Shown one piece after another: positions 1 through 46,047 of a stretch of 46,047 bases of DNA. The stretch spans positions 1 to 46,047 of IMG/VR virus record IMGVR_UViG_3300020020_000065; one strand, given 5' to 3'. The position numbers were made by a program, and so were the translations under genes. The notes beneath the pieces are model-generated. The model ran no database searches. It had not been told where the DNA came from and saw nothing but the letters and a program-made list of their open reading frames with translations. Position 1 is the stretch's first letter. Each line of letters begins with the position of its first letter. The stretch is from a virus.

Positions 1-208
1 ATTGCCCCGGTTTCAGCGGTCTCCCGGCGCGTTCGAGCGCGTAGTGGGACGCTTGTACGCGCGGTTTGCCTCGTTCAACCACCATCATCGGGTATGTTGG
101 TTTCTTCCGGCCCTTGCTCGACTGCGAATGCCAGTTCAGACAGCCGGTAGCCGGGTCAATCCGGGTCTTGGCAAGAAAGCGGGTTTCTGCGGACTGGGAA
201 CGCCTCAT
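1..208 (-). CDS. HNH homing endonuclease, N-terminal part (runs off left edge)
   Basis: An open frame starts at an ATG at 208 and stays open to base 1, giving 69 residues with no stop. The translation has the usual first half of phage HNH_3-type endonucleases: RIDPATGCLNW (residues 16-26), then a basic segment, then ASHYALERAGRPLKPG, the stretch that normally leads into the H-x-C catalytic half. The catalytic His/Asn/His lies outside the window, so activity cannot be judged. No convincing ribosome binding site precedes the ATG. It lies 37 bp downstream of the 98-aa gene on the same strand. Such genes are usually free-standing selfish nucleases. If the window ends are joined, the frame does not continue as an HNH domain, so the gene is truncated by the window. 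Confidence 0.75.
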   Translation of the reverse strand, partial: MRRSQSAETRFLAKTRIDPATGCLNWHSQSSKGRKKPTYPMMVVERGKPRVQASHYALERAGRPLKPGQ

Positions 209-245
209 AAACGAAGAGTATCAATCCCGAGACTGCTTTCAAGCC

Positions 246-542
246 TTATTTTCTGGGCCTTAAGCGATCCAATTCCTCGTTTATCTCGCGGGGAGACATC
301 TCGTTGAGGGGTTTTTCGGCCCTCTGGGCGACCTCCTGGAGACGCCCGATGTCGCCTAAACTCTCAAGCAAAGTTCGCGCTGCGGCTGCACGGGCGGCGC
401 TCGGTGCAACCGGGTCATCTGCAACCTCAAGTAGGGCGCGGAGGGCGAGTTTTCGGATGTCTTCCTTAGCCGGCGAAGTATTTATTTCGCGTCTTTTGGG
501 GGTCTTTTTGACGGCCTTGTCGAGTTCTGATGGGTTGTTCAT
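246..542 (-). CDS. Small helical phage protein, possible small terminase subunit
   Basis: This 98-aa protein is charged at both ends and strongly helical. It has an alanine-rich middle (SAARAAAARTLLESLG, about residues 48-63) and a C-terminal motif of the form NEMSPREINEELDRL. Alanine-rich 'RTLLE.LG.IG' followed by 'EMS.EE.. ELDRL' recalls small proteins sometimes annotated as terminase small subunits in proteobacterial phages. That assignment is a recollection of a pattern, not a domain hit. The large terminase is 36 kb away, which is unusual for such a partner. The gene sits directly downstream of a 295-bp non-coding stretch dense in GAGAC sites, which would suit a packaging or control region. 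The start has only a weak GGGA-type ribosome binding site. Function is uncertain. Confidence 0.7.
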   Translation of the reverse strand: MNNPSELDKAVKKTPKRREINTSPAKEDIRKLALRALLEVADDPVAPSAARAAAARTLLESLGDIGRLQEVAQRAEKPLNEMSPREINEELDRLRPRK

Positions 543-837
543 TGGGTTATTTTTCCCGATTTAAAAAGAGACAAATTTTCTAGGTGAGCTTACATTCCCG
601 TGCGGCGCGGCGGCCCGAGGCCAGGCCAGGGGTCGGATAGAAAAACCAAACAATATCAAACACTTAGCGTGTCTCCGTAAGTCAACGCTTACATACGAGA
701 CGTGTGTCTCCAAACGAGACACGCGTCTCATCGTTCACGTTCTGTTCTCATGTCTCCAGGTGCGCCTGGAGAGCCTGAAATCGGCCCTTTGGAGACAAGC
801 ACGGGAGACGTGCAAGCGCGGCTAGCCGGGAGACATT
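543..837. promoter_or_regulatory. Non-coding control region dense in GAGAC/GTCTC sites
   Basis: This 295-bp gap lies between two minus-strand genes. From 671 to 845 there are ten copies of GAGAC or its complement GTCTC (671, 697, 706, 716, 725, 752, 792, 805, 830, 841). On the minus strand a TTGACT (685 to 680) could be a -35 element for the 98-aa gene, and it sits inside a small dyad (GTAAG 677-681 / CTTAC 88-92 of the same hundred, i.e. 688-692). No good -10 follows at normal spacing, so the promoter call is weak. The left part (560-660) holds A-rich and GC-rich runs but no other feature I recognise. Confidence 0.45.
697..729. repeat. Nested GAGAC inverted repeats (33 bp)
   Basis: Two 14-bp units, each GAGAC-N4-GTCTC (697-710 and 716-729), are separated by 5 bp. 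The second is the reverse complement of the first with one mismatch, so the whole block is also a larger inverted repeat with a 5-nt centre. It could act as a binding site for a dimeric protein or as a hairpin. It lies in the leader region of the possible small-terminase gene. Confidence 0.8.
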
Positions 838-1263
838 TTAGAGACATGGCTTCGTGAATCCTAGGCGCGCATTGCGCCGCGCTTCTATCGCCTTTCCTCT
901 TTCGACAGGCGACAACAGGCGCGACTCTGGCACGTCAGGCGGAAGCGACTCGAATAGCGCGGCCAGCGCGGCCAGCGCATAGCGCGGCGCAGCGCGGCCA
1001 GTAGCCAGCGGGATAAACCTGTCGCCTAGGTCCGCGCGCTGCGCCTGATAGGCGTTTGCGTGACCGCCATGCGAAGCACAACAGGATCCGCCTTGAACGC
1101 TATCTTTGCGACAGCGCTGGCCAGTGGCGCGCGCTGTCGCCTTGCATTGCTTCCGGCTAGCGTGACCGTCGCCAAAGCTAGACCGATAGCCGGGAAAGCG
1201 CTGCGCCTTGCTAGCGGTCCTAAGCGGCGCGCGCCAGTTAGGGCGATTCTTCGATATGGCCAT
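838..1263 (-). CDS. HGG-motif cysteine-rich small phage protein
   Basis: This 141-aa basic protein has a central block CKATARATGQRCRKDSV...CCASHGGH (about residues 40-68). The pattern C-x(10)-C-x(8)-C-C-x(3)-HGG is typical of the short HGG-containing proteins found on phages and plasmids (C-x-A-x-T-x(2)-G-x(2)-C-R ... C-x(2)-HGG), which probably bind zinc. The role of that family is unknown. The C-terminal half is alanine/leucine-rich and helical. The ATG at 1263 is kept because there is no better start. It is the last gene before the GAGAC-rich gap and follows the terminator of the CobS/CobT-like block, so it may be read from its own promoter. Confidence 0.7.
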   Translation of the reverse strand: MAISKNRPNWRAPLRTASKAQRFPGYRSSFGDGHASRKQCKATARATGQRCRKDSVQGGSCCASHGGHANAYQAQRADLGDRFIPLATGRAAPRYALAALAALFESLPPDVPESRLLSPVERGKAIEARRNARLGFTKPCL

Positions 1264-1330
1264 AGCGCCACAAAAACAGGCTTTGCAGCGCGATTCAAGT
1301 TTCCCGGCTAGTCGGATAGCCTAAAAGCAG

Positions 1331-1356
1331 AAAGGCGCGCTCTAGAGCGCGCCTTT
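1331..1356 (-). terminator. Intrinsic terminator after the CobT-like gene
   Basis: A perfect 26-bp palindrome with 12-bp arms (AAAGGCGCGCTC and its complement) is followed on the minus strand by a T-rich run (CTTTCTGCTTTT). It starts 28 bp after the stop of the VWA gene and is the natural end of the cobS/67-aa/cobT transcript. Confidence 0.75.
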
Positions 1357-1383
1357 CAGGCTTTGCGGGCAGGTCGCGGGCGA

Positions 1384-3228
1384 CTAGGCGCTTTCGCGCT
1401 CCAAGGCGCGAACAAGAACGCCTAAGCCTGCGCTGGCAATATCGTCAGGCTTGCATGAGACCGCCAAGCTAAATCCGTCATGGGAAGGAATCCCGATGCA
1501 AAGCGCCACGGTCTCGACATCCATCCGCCTTGCATAGTCGCAAGCTTTGCGCACCATGATACCGCCTGAATCGCAATCGCCGTCAGATACCACAAACAGG
1601 ATCTTCCGCTTGTTTGGCGCGCGCGCCGCAAGCTTCGCCGTCGCGGAAATCATGCAGGAGGAAAGCGGCGTGGATCCGCCTGCGGTCAATCCAAGGCGCG
1701 CAAGGCGCTTTAGGACGATGGGAAGCGTAGGCGTTTCGCTGGTCGCCTTGACAGTCTCGAATTCTGTCGAGGAAAACGACAGGATATCGTTTTTGACGCC
1801 TACGCTTTGCGCCGCCTGCGCGATTGTCAGCGCGAGAGTCGACGCCGCCCATGCGTAAGCTCCCGACATGGATCCGCTATGGTCTAGCAAAACGGTTATC
1901 TCCGTTTCATAGCCGCTGGAAAAGGTTCGCCTAGCGTAAACGCCTTCCGTCTGACCTGCGCCTATGCGCGCCATTGCAGAACGGTCTAGGCGACCGCTAG
2001 GGCGATTGCGCTCATAAGTTTCGTTATCCGCCGCTTTCAAAACGCGCGCGACCTGCGCCTTAAGCTTTCCGGCGCGCAAGGCGTTTTGCGACAGCGCGGC
2101 CACGCTAGCCGTTGGCTCTTTCATCCAGACGCTTTCCATCGCTGGCCGCGCCACGCCTGCGCTGCGCTGCGCCTTGCGGATTGCTTCCGCCATGACCGAC
2201 TCTTTCGAAGCGTTCACGGGATTCCGCTTTGCGCCTTGCGCGGACTCTTTGATTTCATCCGATACGGGATCCATCTCGACAGCGCGCATTTGATCGAAGT
2301 CAGCGGTCAGGTCTGAATCGCCGCTTCCGCCTGCGCTGTTGCCTGACTCGCCTTGTTCGCCATTAGGAGCGCCGCTGGAGACCGGCGCGGGCGCTGCGCT
2401 ATCCTCTTCCGGCTTATCGCCTTCCTGCGCTTCTACGGTCTCCGCTGCGCCGCTGTCGGCCGTTTCCGTTTCACTGTCGCTATCGACAGGCGCGCTGTCC
2501 TGCTTTTCGCCTTCCGGCTTTGACTTGTCGCCTTTGCCGCTGTCGCCTTCTGGCTTGTCTCCCGGCTTAGGCGCAAGGCGCGCTTTCAAGGCGCGCACGA
2601 TGTCCAGAATATCGTTTGTGCTTTGCGCCTTGCTAACCTGCGCCATGACATCAGCGACCAAGGCCGACATAGCAGGCGAAAGCTTGTCTAGCTGCGCCTG
2701 CGCTTCCGGGAGATTGTAGCCGCAAACGTGGACGCGACCGGCCATTGCCAGCAACCAAGGCAAGTCTTTCATGTCGTTTGGATTGTAGCTAGCCGGAAGC
2801 GCGGCCACGCAATGCGACAGCAAAGCGTTTAGAACCTTGGTCGAATTTGCCGCGATAGCCGCATGATTGAATTTAGTCTCAATGCGCACGTCTTCCAGCG
2901 CATTGACCAGAACGTGGATCCGCTCACGAACAGCGGTATGCCAAGCGGTTTCGTCAGTGTAGAGCGCATGGCACAATTCGTGAAGGAAATAGCCGGTCCA
3001 GCGGTCCAGCTCTTCCTTGGATAGGCGAGTCGCGCTGGCCATGGCCGGAAACTTGACTTCAACGTCAATCGCGCCGGTCCATGCGTTTTTAAAATGTTTG
3101 ATGCTGGCAGTTCCCGATACGCTATCGATGCGCGCGCCAACGTTTCCGGCCTTTTCGCCTGCTATCGTCAGGAAGGCGCGAATATTCATTTCCATCGCGT
3201 CCAAGGCGTCTGTCACTAAAACTTGCAT
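1384..3228 (-). CDS. cobT: CobT-like VWA-domain protein with HExxH motif
   Basis: This 614-aa protein has three parts. The N-terminal domain carries HELCHALYTD (His83, Glu84, His87) and then NALEDVRIE (109-117), the arrangement of a gluzincin-like HExxH site with a downstream Glu. An acidic, Ser/Pro-rich linker runs from about 225 to 330. The C-terminal von Willebrand A domain has a full MIDAS: DHSGS (Asp449, Ser451, Ser453), Thr in GGSTPL (about 520) and Asp in VSDGD (about 549). The architecture matches CobT, the partner of the MoxR-type AAA+ ATPase CobS in aerobic cobaltochelatase, and the CobS-like gene is just upstream. No CobN or other cobalamin gene is present, so the pair more likely remodels another target. 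The leader GGAGAGAACAA-ATG is a strong ribosome binding site. Confidence 0.85.
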   Translation of the reverse strand: MQVLVTDALDAMEMNIRAFLTIAGEKAGNVGARIDSVSGTASIKHFKNAWTGAIDVEVKFPAMASATRLSKEELDRWTGYFLHELCHALYTDETAWHTAVRERIHVLVNALEDVRIETKFNHAAIAANSTKVLNALLSHCVAALPASYNPNDMKDLPWLLAMAGRVHVCGYNLPEAQAQLDKLSPAMSALVADVMAQVSKAQSTNDILDIVRALKARLAPKPGDKPEGDSGKGDKSKPEGEKQDSAPVDSDSETETADSGAAETVEAQEGDKPEEDSAAPAPVSSGAPNGEQGESGNSAGGSGDSDLTADFDQMRAVEMDPVSDEIKESAQGAKRNPVNASKESVMAEAIRKAQRSAGVARPAMESVWMKEPTASVAALSQNALRAGKLKAQVARVLKAADNETYERNRPSGRLDRSAMARIGAGQTEGVYARRTFSSGYETEITVLLDHSGSMSGAYAWAASTLALTIAQAAQSVGVKNDILSFSSTEFETVKATSETPTLPIVLKRLARLGLTAGGSTPLSSCMISATAKLAARAPNKRKILFVVSDGDCDSGGIMVRKACDYARRMDVETVALCIGIPSHDGFSLAVSCKPDDIASAGLGVLVRALERESA

Positions 3229-3258
3229 TTGTTCTCTCCGTTGTTTGGTCAGGTCAAT

Positions 3259-3462
3259 TTAAAGCGCGCGATATCCCGCAAAGCCGGATCCGAAATAATT
3301 CTTGGCCGCGCGGCTAGATGTATAAATCAGTTTTTGACGCAGCAAAGCCTTGATAGCTTTCTGCACGTCTTCAAGCTTTACGCCTCCAACCTTAGCTTCG
3401 AAATTAGCGTAAATTTCCCGGCGTTTGGCGATTTCTAAAAGCTTTTGTTCATAAGCGGTCAT
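3259..3462 (-). CDS. Small 67-aa protein between CobS- and CobT-like genes
   Basis: I place the start at ATG 3462 (MTAYEQKLLEIAKRREIY...) because CGGAGAGAATCGAA gives a good ribosome binding site there; a longer frame starting at 3525 has none. The 67-aa product is basic and helical, with VKLEDVQKAIKALLRQKLIY (residues 28-47) resembling the helix-rich part of a small winged-helix or replication-accessory fold, but I do not recognise a family. It has its own promoter candidate (3508-3536) and is followed after 30 bp by the VWA gene, so the two are probably co-transcribed. A role as regulator or adaptor of the AAA+/VWA pair is only a suggestion from position. Confidence 0.65.
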   Translation of the reverse strand: MTAYEQKLLEIAKRREIYANFEAKVGGVKLEDVQKAIKALLRQKLIYTSSRAAKNYFGSGFAGYRAL

Positions 3463-3507
3463 TTCGATTCTCTCCGTTTTCGGTCTCTTGCGTCTAAGCG
3501 CAAAGCG

Positions 3508-3576: not shown

Positions 3577-5010
3577 TTAGTCCTGCGCTAGGTCGGGAAA
3601 GCTTTTGCGCGCATCGACCTGTTGCGGCGCGTCTGACAGTGGCGCGGAAGCTTTCCCGCCCATGTCTCCCGTAAAGGCCGCGACATCGAAGGCGGCGCTG
3701 AAATGCTGGCGCAGCGCTTCCCGTTCTGCTTCCGGCAATCTGGACAGGACAGTGTCATGGAAAGATTCCGCGACATCGAATCCTCTTCCGGCCATGTTCA
3801 CGAAAGCGACCATCCGGCGCAGCGACAGCGGCCTAGCGTCAAAGCCGGAAAGTTTTCTTGCGCTGTTGACGAAAGCAACCACACGGTCACAGGCGCTGCG
3901 CGGCGCTGTTGTCCGATTAGCCAGCGCCTGCGCTTCGCGGTCGGGCGACATGTAGTCGACATAGAGCATGGCCGCGAAGCGGTCGACCAAGGCGGCATTA
4001 GCCTGTTGCGTCCCCGCATAAAGGCCGCTTTCGTCGCCATAGCCACGCGTATTGTCGGCAGCGCAAAAGGCGACACCATCAGCGCAGCGGACCTGCTCCC
4101 CCGTTGCAAGATTCAGGTAGCGCTCATCCAAGAGCGTTTGCAGCACCATCGCGATTCCGGGCGGGCAGGCGGTAATTTCGTCTAGCAGGATAATGGTTCC
4201 GGGCTTGCGGATTGCCTGCGTCAGAATCCCGTCTTTCCATCCGGTATTTCCGTTTTTGAGACCATCGGATCCAAACAGGTCAATGGGATCCGTTGTGCGG
4301 TTGAAAGCGATTCGAACAAACGGTCTCCCGGTGCGCGCGGCATACTGCGTTGGGGCGGTGGTTTTACCTGTGCCAGCCGGACCGGCTGTCCAGAAATATT
4401 CGCCATTCTCGACATAACCGGTCAGTTTCGCGATTAGCGCAGGATCCGCGACATAGTAGGGATCCACGATAGGCGCTGCGCTCGAATCCCAACGCGAGAC
4501 CGGAAGCGCCGCATGTTTGTGGCGCGGGAATCCCCAAAGCTTGCCAAAGGTGGTCTGCTCGATTCTGGCCGCATCGTTTGAGACAGGCGCAGCGACGACA
4601 GCGCCTGACTCGTCGACGTGAACCGTCACGGTCTTTTCAATCTCGATTGCGGGCTTAAGCGCCGCCATGACGATAGGCGCAAGCGCGGTCTCTACCTGAC
4701 CTAGCAGGACAGGCGACAGGAAAGGCCGCAAGGGCGACAGGACCGTTTCCGCTAGGTCAGGCGCGGACTCTGTCTCAACAGACGCGACAGGCATTGCAGC
4801 GGTTTCCATTTCTTCGATTGTGCCAGCGGTCGCAACCATGTCGCGGACCTGATCCATGAGTCCGAATTCCTGCGCCGCCTTAAGCGCCAACTCCGTTGTC
4901 AGATCTCTTGAAGCGAAATTACCATTGAAGGCGCGAAAGCCATCAAAGTCAGGATGATTGCGAATCATGGCGCGGACAGCATCGCGGACATTTTTCGAAA
5001 GTTTCAACAT
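3577..5010 (-). CDS. cobS: CobS-like MoxR-family AAA+ ATPase
   Basis: This 477-aa protein has about 200 N-terminal residues without a recognisable domain, then a MoxR/CobS-type AAA+ module: Walker A GPAGTGKT (210-217), Walker B IILLDE (273-278), a sensor-1-like AADNT and a later Arg-rich sensor-2 region. The segment 'NRTTDPIDLFGSDGLKNG' after Walker A is characteristic of CobS. CobS hydrolyses ATP with its VWA partner CobT to drive cobalt insertion by CobN. Related phage cobS genes are known, and MoxR-VWA pairs in general act as ATP-driven remodelling chaperones. The start at 5010 has the strong leader CGGAGAGAACAA-ATG, shared with the CobT-like gene. Word usage (many GCGC, GGATCC) differs from the rest of the window, suggesting separate origin. 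Confidence 0.9.
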   Translation of the reverse strand: MLKLSKNVRDAVRAMIRNHPDFDGFRAFNGNFASRDLTTELALKAAQEFGLMDQVRDMVATAGTIEEMETAAMPVASVETESAPDLAETVLSPLRPFLSPVLLGQVETALAPIVMAALKPAIEIEKTVTVHVDESGAVVAAPVSNDAARIEQTTFGKLWGFPRHKHAALPVSRWDSSAAPIVDPYYVADPALIAKLTGYVENGEYFWTAGPAGTGKTTAPTQYAARTGRPFVRIAFNRTTDPIDLFGSDGLKNGNTGWKDGILTQAIRKPGTIILLDEITACPPGIAMVLQTLLDERYLNLATGEQVRCADGVAFCAADNTRGYGDESGLYAGTQQANAALVDRFAAMLYVDYMSPDREAQALANRTTAPRSACDRVVAFVNSARKLSGFDARPLSLRRMVAFVNMAGRGFDVAESFHDTVLSRLPEAEREALRQHFSAAFDVAAFTGDMGGKASAPLSDAPQQVDARKSFPDLAQD

Positions 5011-5991: not shown

Positions 5992-8349
5992 CTATTTTAC
6001 CCCCTTCATAACCACGAGAGGAACCTTGCCATGGCCACTCCCATCGCTCCCCTCCACGGTCTCCACCCAGCCCAAATCTTCCAATTTGGCAATGATTTCG
6101 TCTGCCTTCATGACGGAGACACCCAGTACCCGATGCGCCGAATTGGCTCCCGTATTCCGCGCCGTCGGGGCATACCGGCGGACCTTCTTCCCCCTCCGAA
6201 CCGCCTCTTCGATCAGGTCGCACCACGCTCGTAGAGCCGTCATATCCTCTGTTGTCTTCACGGGCCGGATAGGCTCCAATACAACCGTTTGTTGAGCCAC
6301 CATCTTGTCTGGATCCACCGCATCCCCGACCGGAATGGCCTCCGTTGTCAGTTCGTAGTAGCAGGCCACATACCTCGCCCGGTCATCATTGGCCTTCGCC
6401 ACATACTCGACCACGATGTCTCGCCCCTCCCAGCCGTAGTTCTCGACCTCTCCCCTGTTGGCCGGTGTGAGTGTCACTGCCCCCCGCACCGATCCGCCAA
6501 TGGCAAACGACCCCTTCAGCGCCACGATGGACCTGTCCTCGTCCCCGACCGATCCCTTGTTGACGTGATGGATGAACACCACGGACGCCCAGAACACCTT
6601 GGCCAGCCGATCCAGGAACTGCATGACCGGATTGATGTCCTTGGCTTGGTTCTCGTCGATCCCGGTGACCGAGGTCGCCAGCGTGTCCACCACGATCATC
6701 GCGATGTCTCTGCCGCCCTGCACCCACCCCAGCACCATTTCCAGAATTTCGAGGCACTCGAACTCCCAGCCCTTGGTGCCGTCCCAGCGCAGGAGCGTGG
6801 ACTTCAGCGGGATTACCTCGTGCGGCGGCACGACCCCAGCTAACCCATGTCTCTGCTCCCACGCCTTGAAGCGGCGCTTCATGACGTTCAGCCCGTCCTC
6901 GTTGGAAATGTAGATCACATCCCCGCCGAAGTTCATCTCGCTCTGGCCGTACCGCAGCAGGTCTTTGCGCCCGTAGGAGACAGCCAGCGACTGTTGCAGG
7001 ACCAGAAGAGACTTCCCCAGCCCCGGCATACCGCCCAACACCGACAGAACCCCGCGCTCGTAAGGAGTCATGATGGTCGGAGGGGCGACGATGTTGACGG
7101 CAGCCTCGCGGAGCGTCTGGACCTTGCCGTTCAGCCCCCAATGCGGTGTGTCTCCCGAACGGTGGTGTTTGGGCGTCACCTGCGTCTTGGCGATTTCCCT
7201 TAGCAACTCGTCGATCTTCATGCCCGCAGCCTTGGCAGCCGCCGGGCCTGAACCGGCTCCCGCAGTCGCCCCGGCGGCAGCCAGGGTCTCTGCGTCGAGG
7301 TCAGGGAACATCTCCTCGTCCCGCGCGAAAATCTTCTGCGCTTCCTGTCTCTCCGGTGAATCTACCCCATGGATCTCTTCCACGATCTTCCGCAGGGTCG
7401 TCGCTGACCCCTTGGCGCTCGAATAGGTGTCCCACGCCCGTCTGGTCTCTGCCTCGTCGTACTTGTCGGACTTCTGCGACCACTCGTCGAACTGTTCGAA
7501 CCCTTCGCCGCCCGTCGCGCCCCATGTGGCGAGGCCGGTTCTCGTCCACTCATCATAAGACCTTCCCCTGCGTGGGTCGCCGCCCTCTGGCCGGTTGTTG
7601 GGGATCAGGTCGAGCAGGGCTTTGACGTTCTCTGGAGACAGTGTCTCCCCTGCGGCGGACCCAGCCCCCGAAGCCCCAGGAGGACTTTCAGCCATGGGGT
7701 CGATCCCGAACTCGCGGCAGAACATTCCGAACGTCCACGAGTTGCCGACGTGAGTGAGCCTCGTCCTGAACCCACGCCCGTCGGGTTTCGTGTTGGTGCC
7801 GGTCGGCAGCCGGAAGTATTGCCCGACGGCATGGAGACCGGGGCCGAATATCGGGTGTCTCTTGAGAGCCTTGTAGATGAACCGCGCCTGATCCGGGGTC
7901 AGCACCGGGTCGAAGTGGTAGCCGAACTGATACCTGTCGCGCCGAGTCTCCGTCTTCCACGATGGCTCTGCCACCATATCAAAGGCGTCCTCGTCGATTT
8001 CGATGCCGTCCGTGATCGACGTGGTGCCGGGAGCAGCCGTGACTTTCTTGCCGATGTCGTCGAAGACGATGAACGGCACCGACTCGATCCTGTCGTCGTC
8101 GCGGTTGGTCAGCCCCAGCGGATAGGTCGCAGCCGTGACGTGGTGGCGCTGGTTGTCGGGGAGTTTTCGCAGGGCTTCCTCGGTGTAGTGGCCAATAACC
8201 ACCAGACCCTTGTCGCCGGGGATGGACCCCGCGAGGAACAGCCCATGCACGTCGAAACCCCCAAATGCGTCCAGAAAATCCACGCTACGCTGATTGGAGG
8301 ATGACGGCGGCTCTTGCGGAGGGGATCCGGTTGACTTATCTTCATTCAC
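5992..8349 (-). CDS. Primase-helicase (PriCT-2 plus RepA/RecA-like ATPase)
   Basis: This protein is about 785 aa. Residues 30-230 form a degenerate primase-like region. Residues about 245-330 look like a PriCT-2 primase-associated domain (SYDEWTRTGLATW... AWDTYSSAKGS). Residues about 430-640 are a RecA/RepA-type ATPase with Walker A GGMPGLGKS (444-452), Walker B AMIVVD (555-560) and FIHHVNK after it. The C-terminal 120 residues look like a winged helix. Such proteins prime and unwind phage DNA together with the family A polymerase, which is upstream in the same direction. Residue numbers count from the upstream ATG at 8364. I prefer GTG 8349 because GGAGG lies eight bases before it, while the ATG has no ribosome binding site. 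Confidence 0.85.
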   Translation of the reverse strand: MNEDKSTGSPPQEPPSSSNQRSVDFLDAFGGFDVHGLFLAGSIPGDKGLVVIGHYTEEALRKLPDNQRHHVTAATYPLGLTNRDDDRIESVPFIVFDDIGKKVTAAPGTTSITDGIEIDEDAFDMVAEPSWKTETRRDRYQFGYHFDPVLTPDQARFIYKALKRHPIFGPGLHAVGQYFRLPTGTNTKPDGRGFRTRLTHVGNSWTFGMFCREFGIDPMAESPPGASGAGSAAGETLSPENVKALLDLIPNNRPEGGDPRRGRSYDEWTRTGLATWGATGGEGFEQFDEWSQKSDKYDEAETRRAWDTYSSAKGSATTLRKIVEEIHGVDSPERQEAQKIFARDEEMFPDLDAETLAAAGATAGAGSGPAAAKAAGMKIDELLREIAKTQVTPKHHRSGDTPHWGLNGKVQTLREAAVNIVAPPTIMTPYERGVLSVLGGMPGLGKSLLVLQQSLAVSYGRKDLLRYGQSEMNFGGDVIYISNEDGLNVMKRRFKAWEQRHGLAGVVPPHEVIPLKSTLLRWDGTKGWEFECLEILEMVLGWVQGGRDIAMIVVDTLATSVTGIDENQAKDINPVMQFLDRLAKVFWASVVFIHHVNKGSVGDEDRSIVALKGSFAIGGSVRGAVTLTPANRGEVENYGWEGRDIVVEYVAKANDDRARYVACYYELTTEAIPVGDAVDPDKMVAQQTVVLEPIRPVKTTEDMTALRAWCDLIEEAVRRGKKVRRYAPTARNTGANSAHRVLGVSVMKADEIIAKLEDLGWVETVEGSDGSGHGKVPLVVMKGVK

Positions 8350-8364
8350 AGGAATGGCCTCCAT

Positions 8365-12423: not shown

Positions 12424-12452
12424 TTGCTTTTGGAGAATGCCCACCATATACA
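12424..12452 (+). promoter_or_regulatory. Candidate rightward early promoter
   Basis: TTGCTT (12424-12429) and TATACA (12447-12452) are spaced by 17 bp. Transcription would begin near 12459, giving a 32-nt leader to the ATG at 12491. It lies back to back with the leftward candidate. Confidence 0.45.
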
Positions 12453-12490
12453 CAGCGACGAAATCACAAATCGCCCTGGAGCAACCAACC

Positions 12491-12769
12491 ATGCCCCGCT
12501 ACACCCATCTCAAGCCAATCGCGCAACGAAACCTGCCGAAATACGAGTTTCGGGCCTTTCTCGACGCGTTGGGGAGCGATCAGGAGATCCACGAACTCAT
12601 CGCCGAGTCGGGCTACGAAAGCCCGACCGTCAGTGTCATCCGCAACTGGCGCTCGCGCAACTCCATCCCGACGCGGTGGCTGCCGTTCCTTTTAAGGGTG
12701 GCGCAGAACCTGCCGAAGCCTATCCCGGTGGACTGGATCATCCGCGAGGAAGAAGAAGCGCTTTTTTAA
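12491..12769 (+). CDS. Cro-like helix-turn-helix protein
   Basis: This 92-aa protein is the first gene of the plus-strand operon. ATG 12491 is preferred: GGAG lies nine bases upstream, while the upstream ATG 12437 abuts its own GGAGA and falls within the promoter candidate. The segment GYESPTVSVIRNWRSRNSIPTRWLPFLL (residues 39-66) matches the recognition-helix pattern of Cro/CI-type proteins ('..V.nW+.R..IP.+..p.ll'). It is likely a DNA-binding regulator of the early region and a natural candidate to bind one of the inverted repeats described here, but its target is not known. Confidence 0.65.
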   Translation: MPRYTHLKPIAQRNLPKYEFRAFLDALGSDQEIHELIAESGYESPTVSVIRNWRSRNSIPTRWLPFLLRVAQNLPKPIPVDWIIREEEEALF

Positions 12770-13961: not shown

Positions 13962-14282
13962 ATGGCACTTGCTCGAAACACCGACCCGGAGACTAGCCAC
14001 AAAGCCAAGGTTTTCCGCTTCAACGAGGACCGGGTTCTCGTGCTGGAAATCCATAACCAACACCGGCTGGGGCTAACCGACTATGACCTTGCCGCTATCA
14101 CAGGCCGACAGCAGAACAGCGTCGGCAAGCGCCGCACTGAACTGCGCGACCAAGGCTTTATCGAAGACTCCGGCATGAGGCGAAAGGCCCCAAGCAAGGC
14201 GATGTGCATAGTTTGGCGCATCACGCCTACGGGTATCTCCATAGCCGGGATGCTGTCGGGCAAGAAGGAAGAGGCCGCATGA
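13962..14282 (+). CDS. Winged-helix DNA-binding protein
   Basis: This 106-aa protein has GGGAGAGACATT before ATG 13962. The segment GLTDYDLAAITGRQQNSVGKRRTELRDQGFIED (residues 37-69) is a classic winged helix-turn-helix with recognition helix QQNSVGKRRTEL, followed by a wing (MCIVWRITPTG). Small phage proteins of this type are annotated as transcriptional or replication-accessory factors. It overlaps the helicase start by 4 bp. Confidence 0.7.
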   Translation: MALARNTDPETSHKAKVFRFNEDRVLVLEIHNQHRLGLTDYDLAAITGRQQNSVGKRRTELRDQGFIEDSGMRRKAPSKAMCIVWRITPTGISIAGMLSGKKEEAA

Positions 14283-15625
14283 CGTTCGCGCTTTTTGATT
14301 ACCAGAAGCGGGCTGCCGACATTATCGCCCCGCGCGACCACTCGACCTATCTCGCCGACGAGATGGGGGTGGGCAAGTCCGCGACCGCCATCGAAGTCGC
14401 CAAGCGGCGCAAGGTCGAGCGTCTCCTGATCCTCTGCCCGTCTGTCGGCAAGCTGACATGGGTCCGAGAGTTTAGGCGCTGGTGGCCGGAAATCCAAGTA
14501 ACCGTGGTCGAGAAGCCTGCCGACGTGCGGGCCATGGCCAAGGGAGACGGCGCGTTCATCCTGTCCTACTCGCTGCTATCGATGAGCAAATCCGGCGGCT
14601 TCGACTACATCGCCGAGGCCAGCAAGGCCAAGCCGTTCGAGATGTCGGTCTTGGACGAGGCCCATGCTCTGAAGAACCCGAAGGCGATCAGAACCAGGGC
14701 GGTCCTGCACACGCTGAAACCGATTCTGGGCTGGTGTCTCCCGATGAGCGGGACGCCTACTCCCAATCATTCGGGCGAACTCTTCCCGATCCTCTATGCC
14801 CTGTTCCCGGAGGTCATCCGCCTGCCGACCGGCAAGCTGATGAAGCAGTTCGAGTTCGAGGAGTGCTACTGCGACATCAAGCATGTGCGCTTCGGCGGTG
14901 GGCCGATGCTCCGGCAGATCGCCGGGTCCAAGAACATCGAACAGCTTCGCGCCCGTCTCGCGCCCTACATCCTGCGGCGGCGCAAGCGGGAAGTGCTGCC
15001 GGAACTGCCGGAGATGCTGTTCGATACCTACCCCGTGCCGGTCTCCGGCAAGGCCATGCCGATACCCGACACCATCCAGAATCTCTCTGACGACGACCTG
15101 ATCCGCTGGATGTCGAAGACCGGCGACGAACACATCATGCGCGTCCGGCACCAGATCGGCGTCTCCAAGCTTCAGGGGTCGATTGAGGCGATCATCGACA
15201 CTCTGGAGGGCTGCAACCGGAAAGTCCTCGTGTTCGGACACCATCAGGCTGTGATCCAAGGCGCACGGGATGGTTTGCTCGACTATAACCCTGTCGTCAT
15301 CGACGGCAGTGTCTCCACGGCGGAGAGAGACAAGGCGGTCGAGAAGTTCCTGACCAATCCCAACTGTCGTGTGTTCATCGGCAATATCCTGGCGGCAGGC
15401 ACTTCGATCACCCTGATCGGCCCCGGCATGAAATGCTCCGACGTGTTCTTCATCGAGGCCGACTGGTCTCCCGGAAACAACGTGCAGGCCGCGTCCCGCG
15501 TCCACCGCGTCGGTCAGGACGAGGCCGTGCAGGTCTGGTTCATGACGGCGCACGGCACCCTCGACGACCGGATTCAGGACATCCTCGCCCGCAAGGCGGC
15601 AGACTTCTCGCAATTGTTTGGCTAA
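14279..15625 (+). CDS. SNF2-family DEAD/DEAH helicase
   Basis: The start is ATG 14279 (MTFALFDYQKRAA), overlapping the previous stop; a longer frame to 14204 has no support. The 448-aa protein has the SF2/SNF2 motifs in order: Q-like FDYQKRA, motif I DEMGVGKS (residues about 28-35), motif Ia ILCPSV, motif II DEAH in VLDEAHALKNP, motif III MSGTPTPN, motif V AAGTSITL and motif VI QAASRVHRVGQ. SMARCAL1-like phage enzymes remodel branched DNA and strip bound proteins. It is placed between RuvC and the nuclease/SSB genes. Confidence 0.92.
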   Translation: MTFALFDYQKRAADIIAPRDHSTYLADEMGVGKSATAIEVAKRRKVERLLILCPSVGKLTWVREFRRWWPEIQVTVVEKPADVRAMAKGDGAFILSYSLLSMSKSGGFDYIAEASKAKPFEMSVLDEAHALKNPKAIRTRAVLHTLKPILGWCLPMSGTPTPNHSGELFPILYALFPEVIRLPTGKLMKQFEFEECYCDIKHVRFGGGPMLRQIAGSKNIEQLRARLAPYILRRRKREVLPELPEMLFDTYPVPVSGKAMPIPDTIQNLSDDDLIRWMSKTGDEHIMRVRHQIGVSKLQGSIEAIIDTLEGCNRKVLVFGHHQAVIQGARDGLLDYNPVVIDGSVSTAERDKAVEKFLTNPNCRVFIGNILAAGTSITLIGPGMKCSDVFFIEADWSPGNNVQAASRVHRVGQDEAVQVWFMTAHGTLDDRIQDILARKAADFSQLFG

Positions 15626-15642
15626 ACGAAAGGAAAACGAAC

Positions 15643-16191
15643 ATGGCAATTGAACTCAAGATCGTCGGCGCAAGCTTCGCCGAGATACTGGAAGACGTGA
15701 TCGACATCTCGCCGGTCAAGACACCGCAGCAAGTCCTCGACGGCATCAGCCTGCAAGACCTGCTGGCCTACGTCACGCAGCGCGCGGACGGCGAAGGCTT
15801 CGACATCGCGGCCACCAAGAAGTCTCTGTCGGCAGCCGACAAGCGCAAGGAAGAGGCGCGGGCCAAGCTGAAGGGCGACCTTGAGGGTTCGGTGGCCCAG
15901 ACCAAGGTCAGCACTCCCGAAGAAGACGCCCAACCGGATGCGACTACTACCCCGGAAATCGTCGAGGCCAAGAAAGCCGCCGCCACCAAGAAGGTCAACG
16001 GCACGAAGTCGGAGACACCGGAGCAGATGAAGGAGCGGGTGGTCATGTCGCTCCAGGAACTGTTCGCAAAGGGCAAGAAGGCCGAGGTGAAACGAATCCT
16101 TGCGAACTTCGGCGATGGGGCGAAGAATTTCCACGGGGTGCCGGTCGAGAAGTTCCCCGAAATCGAGAAGGCCATAGGAGAAATCGTCTGA
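15643..16191 (+). CDS. Hypothetical protein with Lys/Ala-rich linker (182 aa)
   Basis: ATG 15643 is preceded by AAAGGAAAACGA. Residues 1-55 form a compact domain (FAEILEDVIDISPVKTPQQVLDG). The middle is a Lys/Glu/Ala-rich linker. The C-terminal 50 residues (MKERVVMSLQELFAKGKKAEVKRILANFGDGAKNF) recall C-terminal domains of phage proteins that sit before DUF2800/SSB genes. The basic tail may contact DNA. Function is unknown. Confidence 0.6.
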   Translation: MAIELKIVGASFAEILEDVIDISPVKTPQQVLDGISLQDLLAYVTQRADGEGFDIAATKKSLSAADKRKEEARAKLKGDLEGSVAQTKVSTPEEDAQPDATTTPEIVEAKKAAATKKVNGTKSETPEQMKERVVMSLQELFAKGKKAEVKRILANFGDGAKNFHGVPVEKFPEIEKAIGEIV

Positions 16192-20433: not shown

Positions 20434-21266
20434 CAGAACCCCCTCCGGGGTGAGGCAAAGCGGGGTTTGCCAATTTGAGGCATGGGTGAGCCGATGTCCT
20501 TCACGTCAAACAGATCGGCAAGCCCTCCGGTCCCGGATGTCCCGGATGGATCCAGGCTTGGTCCGGGTGTTTCCAGGTTTCCTGGGAACGGCACCGCGCT
20601 CTGTGTCTCCAGCTCGGGAGACGGTGTCTCCGGGATGGCGTCGCCGACCAGGGAGCTTGACGCTTGGGGAGTCTCCCCAGGCTTTTTCACACCTTTGGCA
20701 AAAGCAGAAGCCATTGATTGTAAAGGAGTTTCTTCCTTCGGGAGGGCTGTTTCGAATACGTCTGCCAGGGGTGCAGTTCCAGGGGCAGAAACTGCGCCCC
20801 CGGAGACACCGCCACCCGCCGAGAGACCCCAGATCGCAGCTTGCTCAGGTGTTAGCCCTGTCTCCCAGGATCCACCGCCCATCGGAACAGACTCTCCCCC
20901 GGTATCGAAGTGCATCAGATCCAGGGCACCGTACTTGCCCTTGCCTCCGCTGAAGTACCCACCCCAACGTAATGCTTTCGCGAGTTCCGGGTTGGCCTGC
21001 ATCTGCATGGCCCGCACCTGATTGGCGAAGCCCTGATAGGCGGCGAAGCCCTCGGCGCTCTGGTAGTTCGGGATGCGCGCGCCGGTCTTCGGGTCGAACA
21101 GATTAACGTCGACGGCCTGGCCCTTGCCATGAAAGCGTGGGTCGCCCTCGCGCTTGCCGGAGTAGGCGACGACGCGGTAGGGAGACATCCGCGCCGCCGC
21201 CTGCAACCACCCCAGCAGGTTGGGGTCGATGTTGGCGTTCGACATATTCAGTTCGAGTTCGGCCAT
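20433..21266 (-). CDS. M15-like peptidase-fold virion protein with shared C-terminal tag
   Basis: This protein is about 277 aa. Starts TTG 21275 and ATG 21266 are both possible, and none has a good ribosome binding site. The N-terminal domain carries RFHGKGQAVDVNLFD and later LDLMHFDTGG, i.e. the H-x(6)-D and HxD zinc ligands of D-Ala-D-Ala carboxypeptidase/M15 folds. A long Ala/Pro/Thr-rich part follows and ends GGLADLFDVKDIG... like the next gene. It is probably a peptidoglycan-acting or peptidoglycan-binding virion protein. Activity is not proven, since the first Ser/Arg positions differ from classical VanY. Confidence 0.65.
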   Translation of the reverse strand: MAELELNMSNANIDPNLLGWLQAAARMSPYRVVAYSGKREGDPRFHGKGQAVDVNLFDPKTGARIPNYQSAEGFAAYQGFANQVRAMQMQANPELAKALRWGGYFSGGKGKYGALDLMHFDTGGESVPMGGGSWETGLTPEQAAIWGLSAGGGVSGGAVSAPGTAPLADVFETALPKEETPLQSMASAFAKGVKKPGETPQASSSLVGDAIPETPSPELETQSAVPFPGNLETPGPSLDPSGTSGTGGLADLFDVKDIGSPMPQIGKPRFASPRRGF

Positions 21267-21267
21267 C

Positions 21268-23451
21268 TCATTCAAGCCCGATGAGTTTGTTGCCGATGAC
21301 TATCTCCCGGCCATCCGGGGTGCGGACCCTCTTCATGGTCGGAGGGACGCCGCTCTGGTCGGGGGCGAGGATGACCCTCTGCCCGTGTGTCTCGCTGCCG
21401 GGGTCGTCGATCCGCATGTTGTCGGCCTCCGGCACGGCATTGATGGCAGCCCCGGCTCCGCTGCGGGCGATGCTGGTAGACAGCGGCTCCTTCTGGAAGA
21501 GACGCTGGTTGGCTCCTTCGTTGGTGAGGAAGTCGCTCTTGAGCTTACGGTAGGCAGGGAGCATCCCGAGCGTTGCAACCGTCGCGAGGGGTCCGCCGAT
21601 GGCGTTCGCTACCAGGGCGGACAGCCCGCCCTTCGGGTTCTGGCCCTCGCCAATCGTGCTGCCGGGTCCGCCGGGAACAGACCGCTTGCCCGCTCGCGAT
21701 GTCTCCGCTTGGGCGACGGTCGAGATGTCGTCGAGAAGAGGCCGGGCATCCGGGGCCGCGTCGGTGTAGAACCGCCGGAAGTCGGGGCTTCTGTCCCGCC
21801 ATTTCTCGCCGACATCCTTCGGGTTGAACAGTTCGGGGTCCGAATTCTTGCCCGCGTTCTTTCCGCGCGTGTCGAGTTCGAGGGCGTCGGCCAGCATCTC
21901 GTTAAGCTGGGCGGGTTGATGCTCGCGGATCGGTTCGAGGTGCTGGACACTGCCCTTGCTGTTGCCGCCGAACAGCGCCGAGTAAGCTCCACCTTCAGGG
22001 CCGTGCTGCGATGTTTGCAGTTCGGAGACAGCGTCTCTCTGGCCGGACAGGCGCTTGGTTTCAGCCTGGACCTCGTCGAAGTTGGTGACGCCCTGGTTCT
22101 CGGCGGCGTCCCGCATCATGTCGGTGAGGGACTCGTAGGCCGGAGCCTCGACCTTGCGGGAGAGACCCGTCTCCGGCAGGTGCGCGCCAAGGTCGGAGCG
22201 CACGTCCTTGGTCGCGCCATAGGTCATCGTCGGCGACGGCACGTCCATGCTGTCGGGATCGAGGTCCGGCAGTTCATAGTTCTTGCGGATTTCCTGCCGC
22301 AGGGCCTTGGCCTGATTGCGCAACTGGGCGCTCATTGCCCGCTGGTCGCCGAGACCCTTCAGCGCGGCGTCGATTTCCATCGCGTCGGTCGGGCTTAGGA
22401 TGCCGACATCGTTGGCCAGCACCTCCTGCATGTTCGAAATCTTGTCTCCGATGGTCGTCTGGGTGTCGTTGAGCATGGTCTTGATGTCTGAACCGATGCT
22501 CTCCCTGGTGATCGGGCCACCGGCAGGGCGTCCACGAATGCGCTCGGCGACGCTCTGGAGCGCCCGGTCGATGCCCTCGTACTGGCCGCGCCGTGTCTCC
22601 AGCACCTTCTGGCCGATGATCGGCTGCCTTGCGAGCTGGTCTTCCTTTGCGCCCAGTCTCTTCGGGGAAAGAATACCGGAGGTCACGGGTATGTTGGCTC
22701 CGGTCTCGGCGTTCACGCGGTTGATGGCGTCGAGGGTCTCCTTGCTGTCCGGGTCGAAGAACGCACCCTTGATGCCGCCCTTGATGCTGTTGGACACCAT
22801 GCCGGGGAACAGGGCACCGCCGATAAAGCCGCCGACTTCCCGGCCTGTCTCTCCGCCGATCAGTTCGCCTGCCTCGCTGCCAAGATACCCGCCGCCCGCG
22901 CCAACGCCTGTCGTGGTGGCTCCTCGTGCTACCGATCTGGCACCGGCCCCAGCCATCTGCTTGGCCGTCTGCCCGGCACCCCGGAGACCCGTGCGCGCAG
23001 CCATCTGCGAAATGGCGGCAGGTGCACCAGCGCCCATCGTCGCGGCGGTTTCTATGATCGCCGGGGCGATCATGGCCGTGATGTCGTTCATCCGCTCGTA
23101 ACCCGGCTGCACCGGAGCCGCGACCTTGTCGTTGTAGAAGTCGGTGATCGGCCACTGCGCGGACTTGCGCTCGTAAGGACGGCCTTGGCTCTCCTCCCAA
23201 AGGTTTTTGCCAACCTCGCCCAGCCACTGCCCTGCGACATCCGGCAGGTCGAGGGTCGAGGCGATACCCTCGCCCGTGCCACGGGCAAGGGTGCGGATCG
23301 ACTTGTCGACTGTCTCCCCGGTGGAGTCGTTGTCGAGGTCAATCTTGTTATTCATCAGGATGACGGCCTGCTGCATCTCCTCCGGCGACGTTACGGCGTC
23401 GTCGAACAGCATCATCTTGCCGTTGGAGAGAGGGCGAAGAACGTCGGCCAT
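21268..23451 (-). CDS. Large internal virion (ejection-type) protein
   Basis: This 727-aa protein has no enzyme motif. After a 90-residue start, residues about 120-220 are glycine/alanine-rich and hydrophobic (IAPAIIETAATMGAGAPAAI, GVGAGGGYLGSEAGELIGG), resembling membrane-interacting segments of ejection proteins. The middle is helical. The C-terminal part ends with GREIVIGNKLIGLE. Order and size fit the internal core/ejection proteins of podoviruses, which leave the head with the DNA and span the cell envelope. It is followed by two cell-wall enzyme-like genes, which supports that role. Confidence 0.65.
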   Translation of the reverse strand: MADVLRPLSNGKMMLFDDAVTSPEEMQQAVILMNNKIDLDNDSTGETVDKSIRTLARGTGEGIASTLDLPDVAGQWLGEVGKNLWEESQGRPYERKSAQWPITDFYNDKVAAPVQPGYERMNDITAMIAPAIIETAATMGAGAPAAISQMAARTGLRGAGQTAKQMAGAGARSVARGATTTGVGAGGGYLGSEAGELIGGETGREVGGFIGGALFPGMVSNSIKGGIKGAFFDPDSKETLDAINRVNAETGANIPVTSGILSPKRLGAKEDQLARQPIIGQKVLETRRGQYEGIDRALQSVAERIRGRPAGGPITRESIGSDIKTMLNDTQTTIGDKISNMQEVLANDVGILSPTDAMEIDAALKGLGDQRAMSAQLRNQAKALRQEIRKNYELPDLDPDSMDVPSPTMTYGATKDVRSDLGAHLPETGLSRKVEAPAYESLTDMMRDAAENQGVTNFDEVQAETKRLSGQRDAVSELQTSQHGPEGGAYSALFGGNSKGSVQHLEPIREHQPAQLNEMLADALELDTRGKNAGKNSDPELFNPKDVGEKWRDRSPDFRRFYTDAAPDARPLLDDISTVAQAETSRAGKRSVPGGPGSTIGEGQNPKGGLSALVANAIGGPLATVATLGMLPAYRKLKSDFLTNEGANQRLFQKEPLSTSIARSGAGAAINAVPEADNMRIDDPGSETHGQRVILAPDQSGVPPTMKRVRTPDGREIVIGNKLIGLE

Positions 23452-43225: not shown

Positions 43226-43245
43226 GTGCCCGTCTTCCTTCCTAT

Positions 43246-44568: not shown

Positions 44569-44598
44569 TCTTGCCTCCTGAAATCGCGTATCTACGCC

Positions 44599-44832
44599 CT
44601 AGAAAGTCCCGGCATCGATGGTGTCGATCAGTTCCCAGAGGTAATTCGGAAACGCCCCCGACACCAGCATCTGGTTCTGTTTCGAGGGGTTCGGAAACCC
44701 GGCTCCGGCAGCGCCGGGTGCCCAGTCGGTGACGTATGTGTCTCCGGCGGACAGGGTCGTCACCACTTCGCCGACATTGGGGTCGGTGAACGGCACATGC
44801 AAGGCATTCCTGAAGGCTTGGGTGGTACTCAT
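44599..44832 (-). CDS. Small fibre-associated protein (77 aa)
   Basis: ATG 44832 (MSTTQAFRNAL) overlaps the upstream stop as ATGA; an earlier in-frame codon is not needed. The 77-aa product is neutral and ends ELIDTIDAGTF, similar to the last residues of the next fibre (SIDVGTF). It may be an assembly or adaptor peptide of the fibre block. No family is recognised. Confidence 0.55.
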   Translation of the reverse strand: MSTTQAFRNALHVPFTDPNVGEVVTTLSAGDTYVTDWAPGAAGAGFPNPSKQNQMLVSGAFPNYLWELIDTIDAGTF

Positions 44833-46047
44833 CAGAACGGCCCCCATTTGGTGCGCAGATATGCTTCGGCCTGTATGCGCTCGGCGTCGGAGAGTTTGCG
44901 GTTATACAGCAAAACCTCGGCGACTTCGCAGTCGCAGCTTTCGTTATCCAGAGTGAGGTCATAACCCGAAAGGCAGAAGCTGCCGCCCCAGCCGTCCGCC
45001 GCCGGGGGCGTCGGGTGGGTGCCGAGCAGGACGCCATTGGAGAACATCCGGGGTGTGATTTCAGGGGTCGCGCTGTCGCCGCTGTAGAGCCGCCAGTCGG
45101 TGTTCACCGTGATGCGCGTGTCGGGCAGGTAGAAGCCGCCGCCGCCGGTCGTATAGGCGACATCCATGAAGCCGTTCCACCAGCCGATCAGCAGGTTGCC
45201 GCCCTCCGGGTAGTTGGCGCAGGCGATGCGCCCGGTCATGTTCGGCCCCCACATGTGGGCGACATAGACCAGCGTCCAGTCCTTCGCGACGCCGGTGCCC
45301 GTGATGCGGAGACGCCCTTCGCTTTTCCTGAACACCGCGCACGGCAGGCCATTCTTGGCATTGCGGTGCATGGTCGGCACCGGGGTTGGGCTGAGGACAG
45401 GCTGTGTCGCCGAGCCGAGGTTCGGCCATGTCCCTATCGTCGCGCCATCGGCAAGGCCAAGCTGCGAGGCATCGAGCCAGATGGAAAGACCGGCGAGGTT
45501 GGTCGGCAGCCACGGCATCGGCGATGACGACGGCGCGGGCTGGTAGACGATGTCGGCGTAGTAGTTGTTCGGCTTGATCGTGTTGGCCGGGAACACCGTC
45601 TCGGCACCACTAAGCTGCGGCGTCGTATAGGCTCCGCTCTCATAGCGCAGATGGGCCGAGCCGGGCGGCAGGATGCCGGTGTAGGGGTAGGTGCCGTCGA
45701 TGGCGTTCCCCTTGTAGCCGATAGCGGCCCGCACGACCTGACCGGCGACGACAGTGACCGGACCGATGGGCAGCAGGTTCCAGCCGGGTATGTCTCCAGA
45801 CGACGTACCATCGGCCAACACCGAGCCGTCGTCGCCCCACAGGGCGACATAGCGGGATGCCAGAGAGGTGGCACCGCGCCAGTAGCGCAGTGCCGTGATC
45901 CGGCCATCGGCGAGGATGCGGATGCGGTTTCCGCTCATGAAGGTGCCGGGATCGTTGGGTTCGAACTCGGCCACCGCACCGGGGGCGTAAATGCTTTCTT
46001 CAGGCCCCCACTCTTCCGGCGGCCAAACCTTGGTCGCACCGAGATAG
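44832..46047 (-). CDS. Tail protein with DUF4082-like and LamG-like domains (5' end outside)
   Basis: The frame stays open to the right edge (IYLGATKVWPP-type residues YLGATKVWPPEEWGPEES upstream of GTG 45974), so the start lies beyond 46047. The N-terminal part fits a DUF4082 domain (RITALRYWRGATSLASRYVA). The C-terminal 230 residues are a LamG/concanavalin-like domain, ending with the typical EVLLYNRKLSDAERIQAEA and YLRTKWGPF. Probable host-binding tail protein. The sequence 'YLGATKVWP' is usual near the N-terminus of such proteins, so only a few residues are missing. Confidence 0.75.
   Translation of the reverse strand, partial: YLGATKVWPPEEWGPEESIYAPGAVAEFEPNDPGTFMSGNRIRILADGRITALRYWRGATSLASRYVALWGDDGSVLADGTSSGDIPGWNLLPIGPVTVVAGQVVRAAIGYKGNAIDGTYPYTGILPPGSAHLRYESGAYTTPQLSGAETVFPANTIKPNNYYADIVYQPAPSSSPMPWLPTNLAGLSIWLDASQLGLADGATIGTWPNLGSATQPVLSPTPVPTMHRNAKNGLPCAVFRKSEGRLRITGTGVAKDWTLVYVAHMWGPNMTGRIACANYPEGGNLLIGWWNGFMDVAYTTGGGGFYLPDTRITVNTDWRLYSGDSATPEITPRMFSNGVLLGTHPTPPAADGWGGSFCLSGYDLTLDNESCDCEVAEVLLYNRKLSDAERIQAEAYLRTKWGPF

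Follow-up and report, generated by a model that had tools for sequence, protein, structure and literature searches.

Gene content of the window

The window analysed here is one whole virus record, IMG/VR IMGVR_UViG_3300020020_000065 (46,047 bases), and our subject is a short word, GGAGACA, repeated all over it, together with the relation of this word to a pair of genes of the same phage, cobS and cobT (cobST). The gene content is podovirus-like (terminase, portal, capsid, primase/helicase, DNA polymerase, RuvC, DNA helicase, exonuclease, Gp2.5-like protein, CobS and CobT), as annotated with PHROGs and Pfam over ca. 50 open reading frames (ORFs), some short ones being left out, and it includes an exonuclease and a SNF2-type helicase. 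The features on which the analysis turns are these:

1..46047, no strand assigned: asymmetric word GGAGACA/TGTCTCC, 85 copies (43 + 42), within the looser GAGAC/GTCTC, 294 copies (direct counts, codon null)
3577..5010, minus strand: CobS-like MoxR-type AAA+ ATPase, 477 aa, with AAA_5 at residues 210-345 (Pfam AAA_5 8.6e-20); proposed reader/motor
1384..3228, minus strand: CobT-like protein, 614 aa, with an N-terminal HExxH zincin-like domain and a C-terminal VWA domain (Pfam CobT_C 2.7e-8)

A sharp asymmetric word on both strands

An earlier note on this DNA, made from the letters alone, had claimed a strong excess of GAGAC/GTCTC on both strands, and the counts agree. The whole window holds 294 copies (146 GAGAC + 148 GTCTC, 6.4 per kb), against expectations of 99 for independent, identically distributed bases (99.2), 125 for an order-1 Markov model, 134 for order-2 and 219 for order-3, this last model itself soaking up some of the GAGAC signal. 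We also used a codon-preserving null, in which synonymous codons were permuted across all genes of a set of 41 hand-chosen ORFs (40,095 bases, 300 shuffles), leaving proteins and codon use fixed. Under this null the GAGAC class stands at 235 against 113 (z 14) and ranks first of the 512 five-mer classes, and among six-mers GGAGAC reaches 146 against 41 and GAGACA 99 against 19. The observed number is thus given neither by the Markov models nor by the shuffled codons. Copies are denser outside genes (9.6 per kb) than within them (5.9 per kb). The local counts of the note were also right: 20581-22260 holds exactly 15 copies (8 GTCTC, 7 GAGAC) where base composition predicts about 3.6, and the helicase gene at 14279-15625 holds 9 against about 2.9. 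The first of these stretches is nonetheless ordinary for this genome:

20605..22173, no strand assigned: stretch cited in the earlier note, 15 GAGAC/GTCTC, a little over the genome mean

The context GGAGACA, which the note had called frequent, is the full motif, a sharp asymmetric 7-mer. In the 41 genes GGAGACA occurs 69 times against 7.4 expected under the codon null (z 19). Single-base variants at the five inner positions lie at 0.3 to 2.8 times expectation in two gene sets, and GGAGACA itself at about nine times; its outer bases are more tolerant of change than the inner ones. The word is also indifferent to the strand of the gene, with 122 sense and 113 antisense copies of GAGAC within the genes of the window, and for GGAGACA the codon null leaves an excess of 30 against 4.7 in sense and 35 against 3.0 in antisense. 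Codon use and ribosome binding sites are therefore insufficient, as the earlier note had argued, and since both excesses are strong the signal acts on double-stranded DNA and not on RNA. Mean spacing is one GGAGACA per 1,083 bases per strand, and in gap sizes, longest gap and orientation order the window sites look like a random scatter. A packaging or replication signal, another idea of that note, thus finds no support from polarity in the window.

Dialects and turnover among relatives

Terminase homologues were collected at 50 viral loci, and stretches were taken for 16 of the longer records, with the longest ORFs serving as the genes of these relatives. GGAGACA is enriched in G001 (108 copies), G003 (43), G004 (89) and the 20-kb G015 (32). 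In G008 and L014, where GGAGACA is not in excess, the word is GGAGACC instead (for the 20 kb of G008, 68 copies against 15.6). Other members have other words: CGGGCAC in G006, AGGACA in Microcystis phage Mae-Yong1326-1 (hereafter the Microcystis phage), TGGACAC in a Devosia prophage and, in the prophage of AFS002495, AGACA with variable flanks. Scans of viral contigs with CobS brought up words from other lineages, among them CAGACG (CRP-810 clade), CAAGAC, CGAGACG and AACAGCTG; when one early protein at a time (exonuclease, helicase) served as query, no relative could be confirmed. Where they were counted, the phage words are 6-8 bp long with 76 to 196 copies, and in eight phages the spacing is 0.5-1.5 kb per strand. 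The look at related phages that the earlier note advised reveals words that differ by lineage. One 40-kb stretch of S-PM2 gave no clear word, only AGCAGC/CAGCAG, which resembles a codon-type repeat.

Individual sites turn over. Five of 19 window sites are conserved in the aligned L005, and of 18 sites aligned to L024 one is conserved and four now read GGAGACC. Close relatives maintain the density of the word all the same; that density is kept and positions are not is what would be expected if selection sees the number of sites. Arrangement is less featureless in some relatives than in the window. Close pairs are above chance in G004, G006 and the Microcystis phage, and slightly so in G001; strand counts are unequal in G006 (50/28) and in the Microcystis phage (34/55), and in the latter neighbouring sites share their orientation 60 times against 46 by chance.

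Two further repeats were met in these records. G003 (L077-L078) holds 26 copies of GAGAGCGA/TCGCTCTC against 1.3 expected, probably a repeat array, and RHph_X66 (L202, 40000-89999) holds TTACTTA/TAAGTAA 24 times against at most 1 expected, perhaps a phage promoter element.

The word and host DNA

Two related prophages allowed a comparison with the surrounding host DNA, on 280 kb of a contig of AFS002495 (Rhizobiales) and on a Devosia contig of 132 kb. The prophage bins of the first have 2-12 copies of TAGACA per 10 kb and its other bins 0-1; in the second, GGACAC is found 13-25 times per 10 kb inside the prophage and 0-7 elsewhere. An excess of the phage word was not found in the host DNA of either contig, so that the equal excess in the host which the earlier note had named as fatal to its claim is absent from these two. 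As far as tested, the word is phage-specific, besides being real, sharp and evolving.

These data bear on two explanations, since the lack of excess in the examined host DNA argues both against host mutation bias and against mimicry of host Chi sites. The first belongs to the view that the word is an artefact of composition (codon use, codon pairs, mutation bias or host signature), and it is true that some words (GTCGAG) are enriched in phage and host DNA alike and that phages without cobST show milder words. Against it stand not only the host contigs but the survival of the excess in sense and antisense separately under the codon null, the lack of a comparable excess for the inner one-base variants, the word of the neighbouring lineage, which differs by one base, and the aligned relatives, which vary at many site positions, so that no single mutation type is responsible. 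We regard an artefact as the most remote of all the explanations considered here. The second is that the sites are Chi-like, guarding phage DNA from host AddAB/RecBCD, or that they are recombination sites for the phage exonuclease and SNF2 helicase. Chi is likewise short and asymmetric and has as its reader a machine driven by ATP, RecBCD or AddAB, and it is a signal of the host genome. The word here is also short, asymmetric and on both strands, and the phage has its own exonuclease and SNF2-type helicase; unlike with Chi, however, the host DNA beside both prophages has no excess and the orientations in the window follow no order, while G007 and G014 have the related exonuclease and helicase yet no strong word. 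A Chi-like role is in our opinion highly improbable.

As a separate observation, GTCGAG is enriched in the genes of the window (96 against 48) and also in the host part of contig C18, which bears the related prophage G019; it is a host-shared word, unlike GGAGACA. The host of the Microcystis phage calls for comment too. Its genome (L086, OP028995.1) has 72% G+C. The G+C content of Microcystis is far below this value. The paper on this phage names Devosia as the best match of the phage CobS (PMC9503304), and given both facts the stated host deserves a check.

Association of the word with cobST

Within the terminase family the best word score (excess required in both sense and antisense under the codon null) separates the phages completely, 8/8 with cobST lying above 8/8 without it (Mann-Whitney P 0.0005; here as elsewhere the P values take no account of shared ancestry). 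This comparison omits six records of the family or of unclear status (G008, G015, G011, G013, L027 and G031), either because they are fragments that lack the early region or because a CobS-like gene is all they have of the pair. Relatives in which cobST was not found are G005, G002, G007, G014, G010, G012 and RHph_N65 (43-75% terminase identity, some of them maybe fragments), and in the two closest, G005 and the fragment G002 (73-75% terminase identity to the window), GGAGACA is not in excess. In 20 genomes listed as word-bearing, tblastn found CobS in 20 and CobT in 19, and neither gene in any of the eight family members outside this list. No other gene of the window accompanies the word as regularly as cobS; behind cobS and cobT come DNA polymerase (12/20), terminase (12/20) and primase (11/20). 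The label 'word-bearing' was given by eye, also to some weak cases (T5S1, G022, G023, G024), and 16 further genomes were chosen from CobS scans with their local words already known, so that the tblastn tally, the genome-level scores and the family comparison are not blind. 'Linear' records may be fragments, in which a missing gene is not proven absence, and several genomes were covered to 40 kb only.

The association extends beyond the family. Nine word-bearing phages belong to other lineages (G025, G026, CRP-810, G032, G033, G038, G039, T5S1 and G030), and their matches to the window beyond cobST amount to part of the primase in four of the nine, a terminase of 24-31% identity in four, some portions of tail proteins and, for G030 alone, a portion of the polymerase. 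At the level of loci, 12-kb segments scoring at least 6 were found in 23/66 CobS-bearing loci, in 8/11 with CobT only and in 12/93 with neither gene, five of these last 12 being fragments of GGAGACA/C phages; the scores of CobS-bearing loci and of loci with neither gene differ with P 1e-6. This survey covered loci of 9 kb or more that four scans had yielded, minus the eight weakest CobS matches of the A4 scan (L239-L246), among which L242 and L245 had GCGGAC as top word. A six-mer with an AGAC or GGAC core (96 of 2080 classes) is the top word in 21/47 loci of the CRP-810 type (9 kb or longer) and ranks third or better in 29/47; in the other CobS scan (A4) the figures are 5/35 and 7/35. Word and CobS also go together in detail. 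Ten of the listed CobS pairs reach 50% identity or more, and in nine of these the two phages have the same word, as in G006 and G022 (CGGGCAC, CobS 83% identical), and the listed pairs under 47% all have different words. Finally, in S-PM2, nickie, RHph_X66 and ICP2 the neighbours of cobST are genes of replication and recombination.

Genes of this pair have been described in many tailed viruses and in the cyanophage core genome (PMC8651126, PMC11288001). They are treated as B12 genes in the accounts given by PMC11288001, PMC8651126 and PMC9503304, one of which calls the function of phage cobS uncertain. Listings of the open PMC literature gave no report of cobST tied to a DNA motif, or of such words in these phages.

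CobS and CobT

Both proteins are homologous in sequence to cobaltochelatase subunits, CobS in its AAA+ part and CobT in its VWA domain. CobS matches the structure of true CobS (PDB 9ujv) from residue 143 on (E 4.5e-25) and CobT matches PDB 9uka (E 4.5e-6). CobN did not turn up in the PHROG/Pfam scans of the window ORFs, which included no search aimed at it. The likeness to cobaltochelatase CobST and other MoxR-VWA pairs ends at the N-termini: unlike those, the phage CobS has ca. 140 residues ahead of the matching stretch and the phage CobT has an HExxH domain. The first of these extensions is listed here as a candidate:

4585..5010, minus strand: CobS residues 1-142, helical in the model, outside the stretch matching true CobS; candidate DNA-reading part

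The model of CobS residues 1-175 has a mean predicted local distance difference test score (pLDDT) of 68, with residues 11-60 at about 87-92. The length of this N-terminus does not predict the word: G034 and G037 have a long one without a strong word, and G025 and G026 a shorter one with a word. In the N-terminal domain of CobT, H83, E84, H87, N109, E112, D113 and E117 are invariant in 14 sequences, and its model has a pLDDT of 93.5. VIA-align of this model gave mostly metallopeptidases in the first 14 rows, with Z 4.4-7.0, where values under 8 may reflect a mere common arrangement; among these rows is a DNA-protein-crosslink repair protease (6mdx), at the low Z of 4.7.

A proposed reader, and the alternatives

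We propose that GGAGACA is a recognition word in double-stranded DNA, of which the lineage keeps about one site per kb per strand of its own genome, and that its likeliest reader would be the CobS/CobT pair, i.e., a MoxR-type AAA+ ring with a partner that joins a zincin-like metallopeptidase to a VWA domain. The N-terminal part of CobS, not seen in true CobS, would belong to this machine. The words would be loading or recognition sites steering CobS/CobT to phage rather than host DNA, where the machine may remodel or cleave DNA-bound proteins (host silencers, stalled complexes, a repressor) during replication or induction. This suggestion that the word directs a CobS/CobT machine to phage DNA draws on correlation, and we consider it a tenable possibility that we would not call probable.

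Among known systems, McrBC also has an AAA+ ring addressed by an N-terminal DNA-reading domain, and its partner is a nuclease. The putative phage machine would be similar in the ring and its N-terminal part; the partner differs in being zincin-like with a VWA domain. The DNA uptake sequences of the Neisseriaceae come in dialects (PMC7371117). These are lineage-specific words, dense and genome-wide, to which the phage dialects are alike in form; the words here are unlike them in being on phages and absent or rare in the host DNA of the two prophage contigs. The uptake dialects mark cellular genomes for transformation. The word fits none of the known kinds tested, a classification that also draws on correlation.

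Several observations weigh against the proposed role of CobS/CobT. Strong words are missing from eight cobST phages (ICP2, ANB28, RHph_X66, G028, G029, G034, G036 and G037) and nickie has a weak word only, so that these nine rule out cobST as a sufficient cause. Over 29 cobST genomes and eight phages without cobST the difference in score is modest (P 0.04 for 6-mers, 0.09 for 7-mers), and one control segment of bacterial DNA, with a GC-rich word, scored 6.4; higher 6-mer scores than this were found in 15 of the 29 and in none of the eight cobST-free family members. A milder word (CGAGCTG, 69 against 21, 3.3-fold) belongs to the cobST-free G005. In G033 and T5S1 the CobS proteins are 51% identical over 348 residues and the words differ yet overlap (CAAGAC, AAGACAA). 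Similar CobS proteins usually mean related phages, and both word and CobS could follow ancestry. On the structural side, the model of the CobS N-terminus is poor and matched no DNA-binding or any other fold, and for the N-terminal model of CobT no Foldseek match below E 0.001 was found, the metallopeptidase likeness being weak. Lastly, Prim-Pol/PriCT_2 is encoded in 13/19 tested word-bearing records and in 0/9 cobST records without a strong word (it is also in 4/7 tested records without cobST), a distribution by which the word is better predicted from cobST and a primase of this kind together than from cobST by itself.

This last point leads to the phage's own primase, for which the word could be a priming site in lagging-strand synthesis, with Okazaki length setting the density:

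5992..8364, minus strand: primase/helicase (PriCT_2, AAA_25; domain matches), judged less likely as the reader

The spacing in the eight phages resembles that of Okazaki fragments, and primases of the AEP class are described as reading sites of 3-8 nt, as in NrS-1 (PMC8718748) and GP55 of phage 1706 (PMC12205980), where a short site has a phage replication protein as its reader. A difference lies in the proteins, the primase domains here varying between phages with the same word. Window and G001 share GGAGACA and their primases align only from residue 240, the front domains being different; the window primase and that of G004, again with the same word, are 29.5% identical over 271 residues; and in G006 and G022 (both CGGGCAC) identity is 26% over 197 residues, of the helicase half only. 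By analogy with NrS-1, PriCT_2 is the part expected to read the site, and here pairs with the same word (window to G001, G003 and G004 35-39%, with G001 at 39%; G003-G004 28%) are no more alike than some pairs with different words (window-G024 32%, G004-G006 32%). Moreover, G002, G007, G010 and RHph_N65 have Prim-Pol and no strong word, and known primase sites are less enriched (GGGTC of T7, 94 against 57; CCAAC of phage 1706, 93 against 84). We find the primase improbable as the reader, although the distribution of Prim-Pol/PriCT_2 among cobST phages speaks in its favour, and rank it next after the main rival discussed below. The comparison shows in passing what looks like a domain swap, the primase-helicases of the window (5992-8364) and G001 (L052 3715-6264) having dissimilar front parts and being shared from window residue 240.

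The main rival to CobS/CobT is another DNA-binding protein of the phage, such as a lysogeny repressor or a nucleoid-like coat protein, reading the word in a stoperator-like silencing of the prophage, with cobST merely travelling along. The nearest named phages by terminase, the Microcystis phage (51%) and Rhizobium phage RHph_N65 (43.5%), both encode an integrase and a repressor (DicA/Cro-like), and prophages bear the word. Scattered repressor sites are known from Cluster A mycobacteriophages (PMC9283540, PMC6550527), to which the present case is alike in that sites are scattered over a temperate phage genome with specificity differing between relatives. It is unlike them in that the words are of 6-8 bp, bear no relation to the direction of transcription in the window, and are tied to cobST and not to a repressor. 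Stoperators act on elongating transcription, and their site is of 13 bp and present in fewer copies than the words here. PHROGs and Pfam brought no repressor or integrase to light among the scanned ORFs of the window, several small ones of which match nothing, and apart from cobS and cobT no window gene was found in over 12 of the 20 genomes listed with a word. We hold this rival to be unlikely, if less so than the primase. The scattered binding site of the earlier note is supported under the codon null as a site read by a protein; a stoperator as such is not supported, given the indifference to gene strand, and no repressor was recognised in the ORFs scanned.

The readers that the note itself had named fare worse. 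One of them, the 'Cro-like' protein, is possibly the following:

12437..12769, plus strand: small unannotated protein, no family match, distribution independent of the word

This protein is encoded by two phages that lack a strong word, G012 and RHph_N65, and was not detected in some that bear a word, among them the Devosia prophage and CRP-810, which speaks against it as the reader. The protein at 15622-16191 has a helix-turn-helix match that is sub-threshold only. Nor was a methylase found among the ca. 50 window ORFs scanned with PHROGs and Pfam. The genes cobS and cobT, which the note did not name, fit the word better than any of these candidates.

A methylase would matter for one more alternative, in which the word serves as a mark of self through methylation or another modification of its bases. 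Methyltransferase targets can be short asymmetric words on both strands. The words here resemble them in these respects, and CRP-810 carries genes for a methyltransferase and a 2OG-Fe(II) oxygenase; against this, the window scans found no methyltransferase (although a host enzyme could also act), and a restriction target would be expected to be depleted and the word is enriched. A self-mark of this kind appears very improbable to us.

Depletion of other words is, as an observation in its own right, pronounced in this genome. Six-base palindromes are purged in the window (704 against 1709 expected, both strands), at a ratio of 0.41 that is the lowest among the genomes tested, equal with G015; GGCGCC (0/142), GCCGGC (2/152), CGGCCG (2/119) and CCGCGG (0/66) are nearly gone, and AAGCTT is enriched (36/13). 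Under the codon null CCAGG/CCTGG (91 against 194), CTGAG/CTCAG (8 against 67) and GAGCT/AGCTC (17 against 90) are also depleted, perhaps by restriction avoidance.

Significance

Taken further, the proposal would mean that phage CobS and CobT are no B12 enzyme but a DNA-addressed AAA+/metalloprotease machine, each lineage having its own word of 6-8 bp, at about one site per kb per strand, by which phage DNA is told apart from that of the host and of other phages; in this general form we think it rather doubtful. If the link is true, cobST would gain a testable role in the biology of phage DNA, and a new kind of self/non-self DNA address would be at hand. A cheap assay also comes with it, for the sequence is enough to reveal the word, which can then be synthesised.

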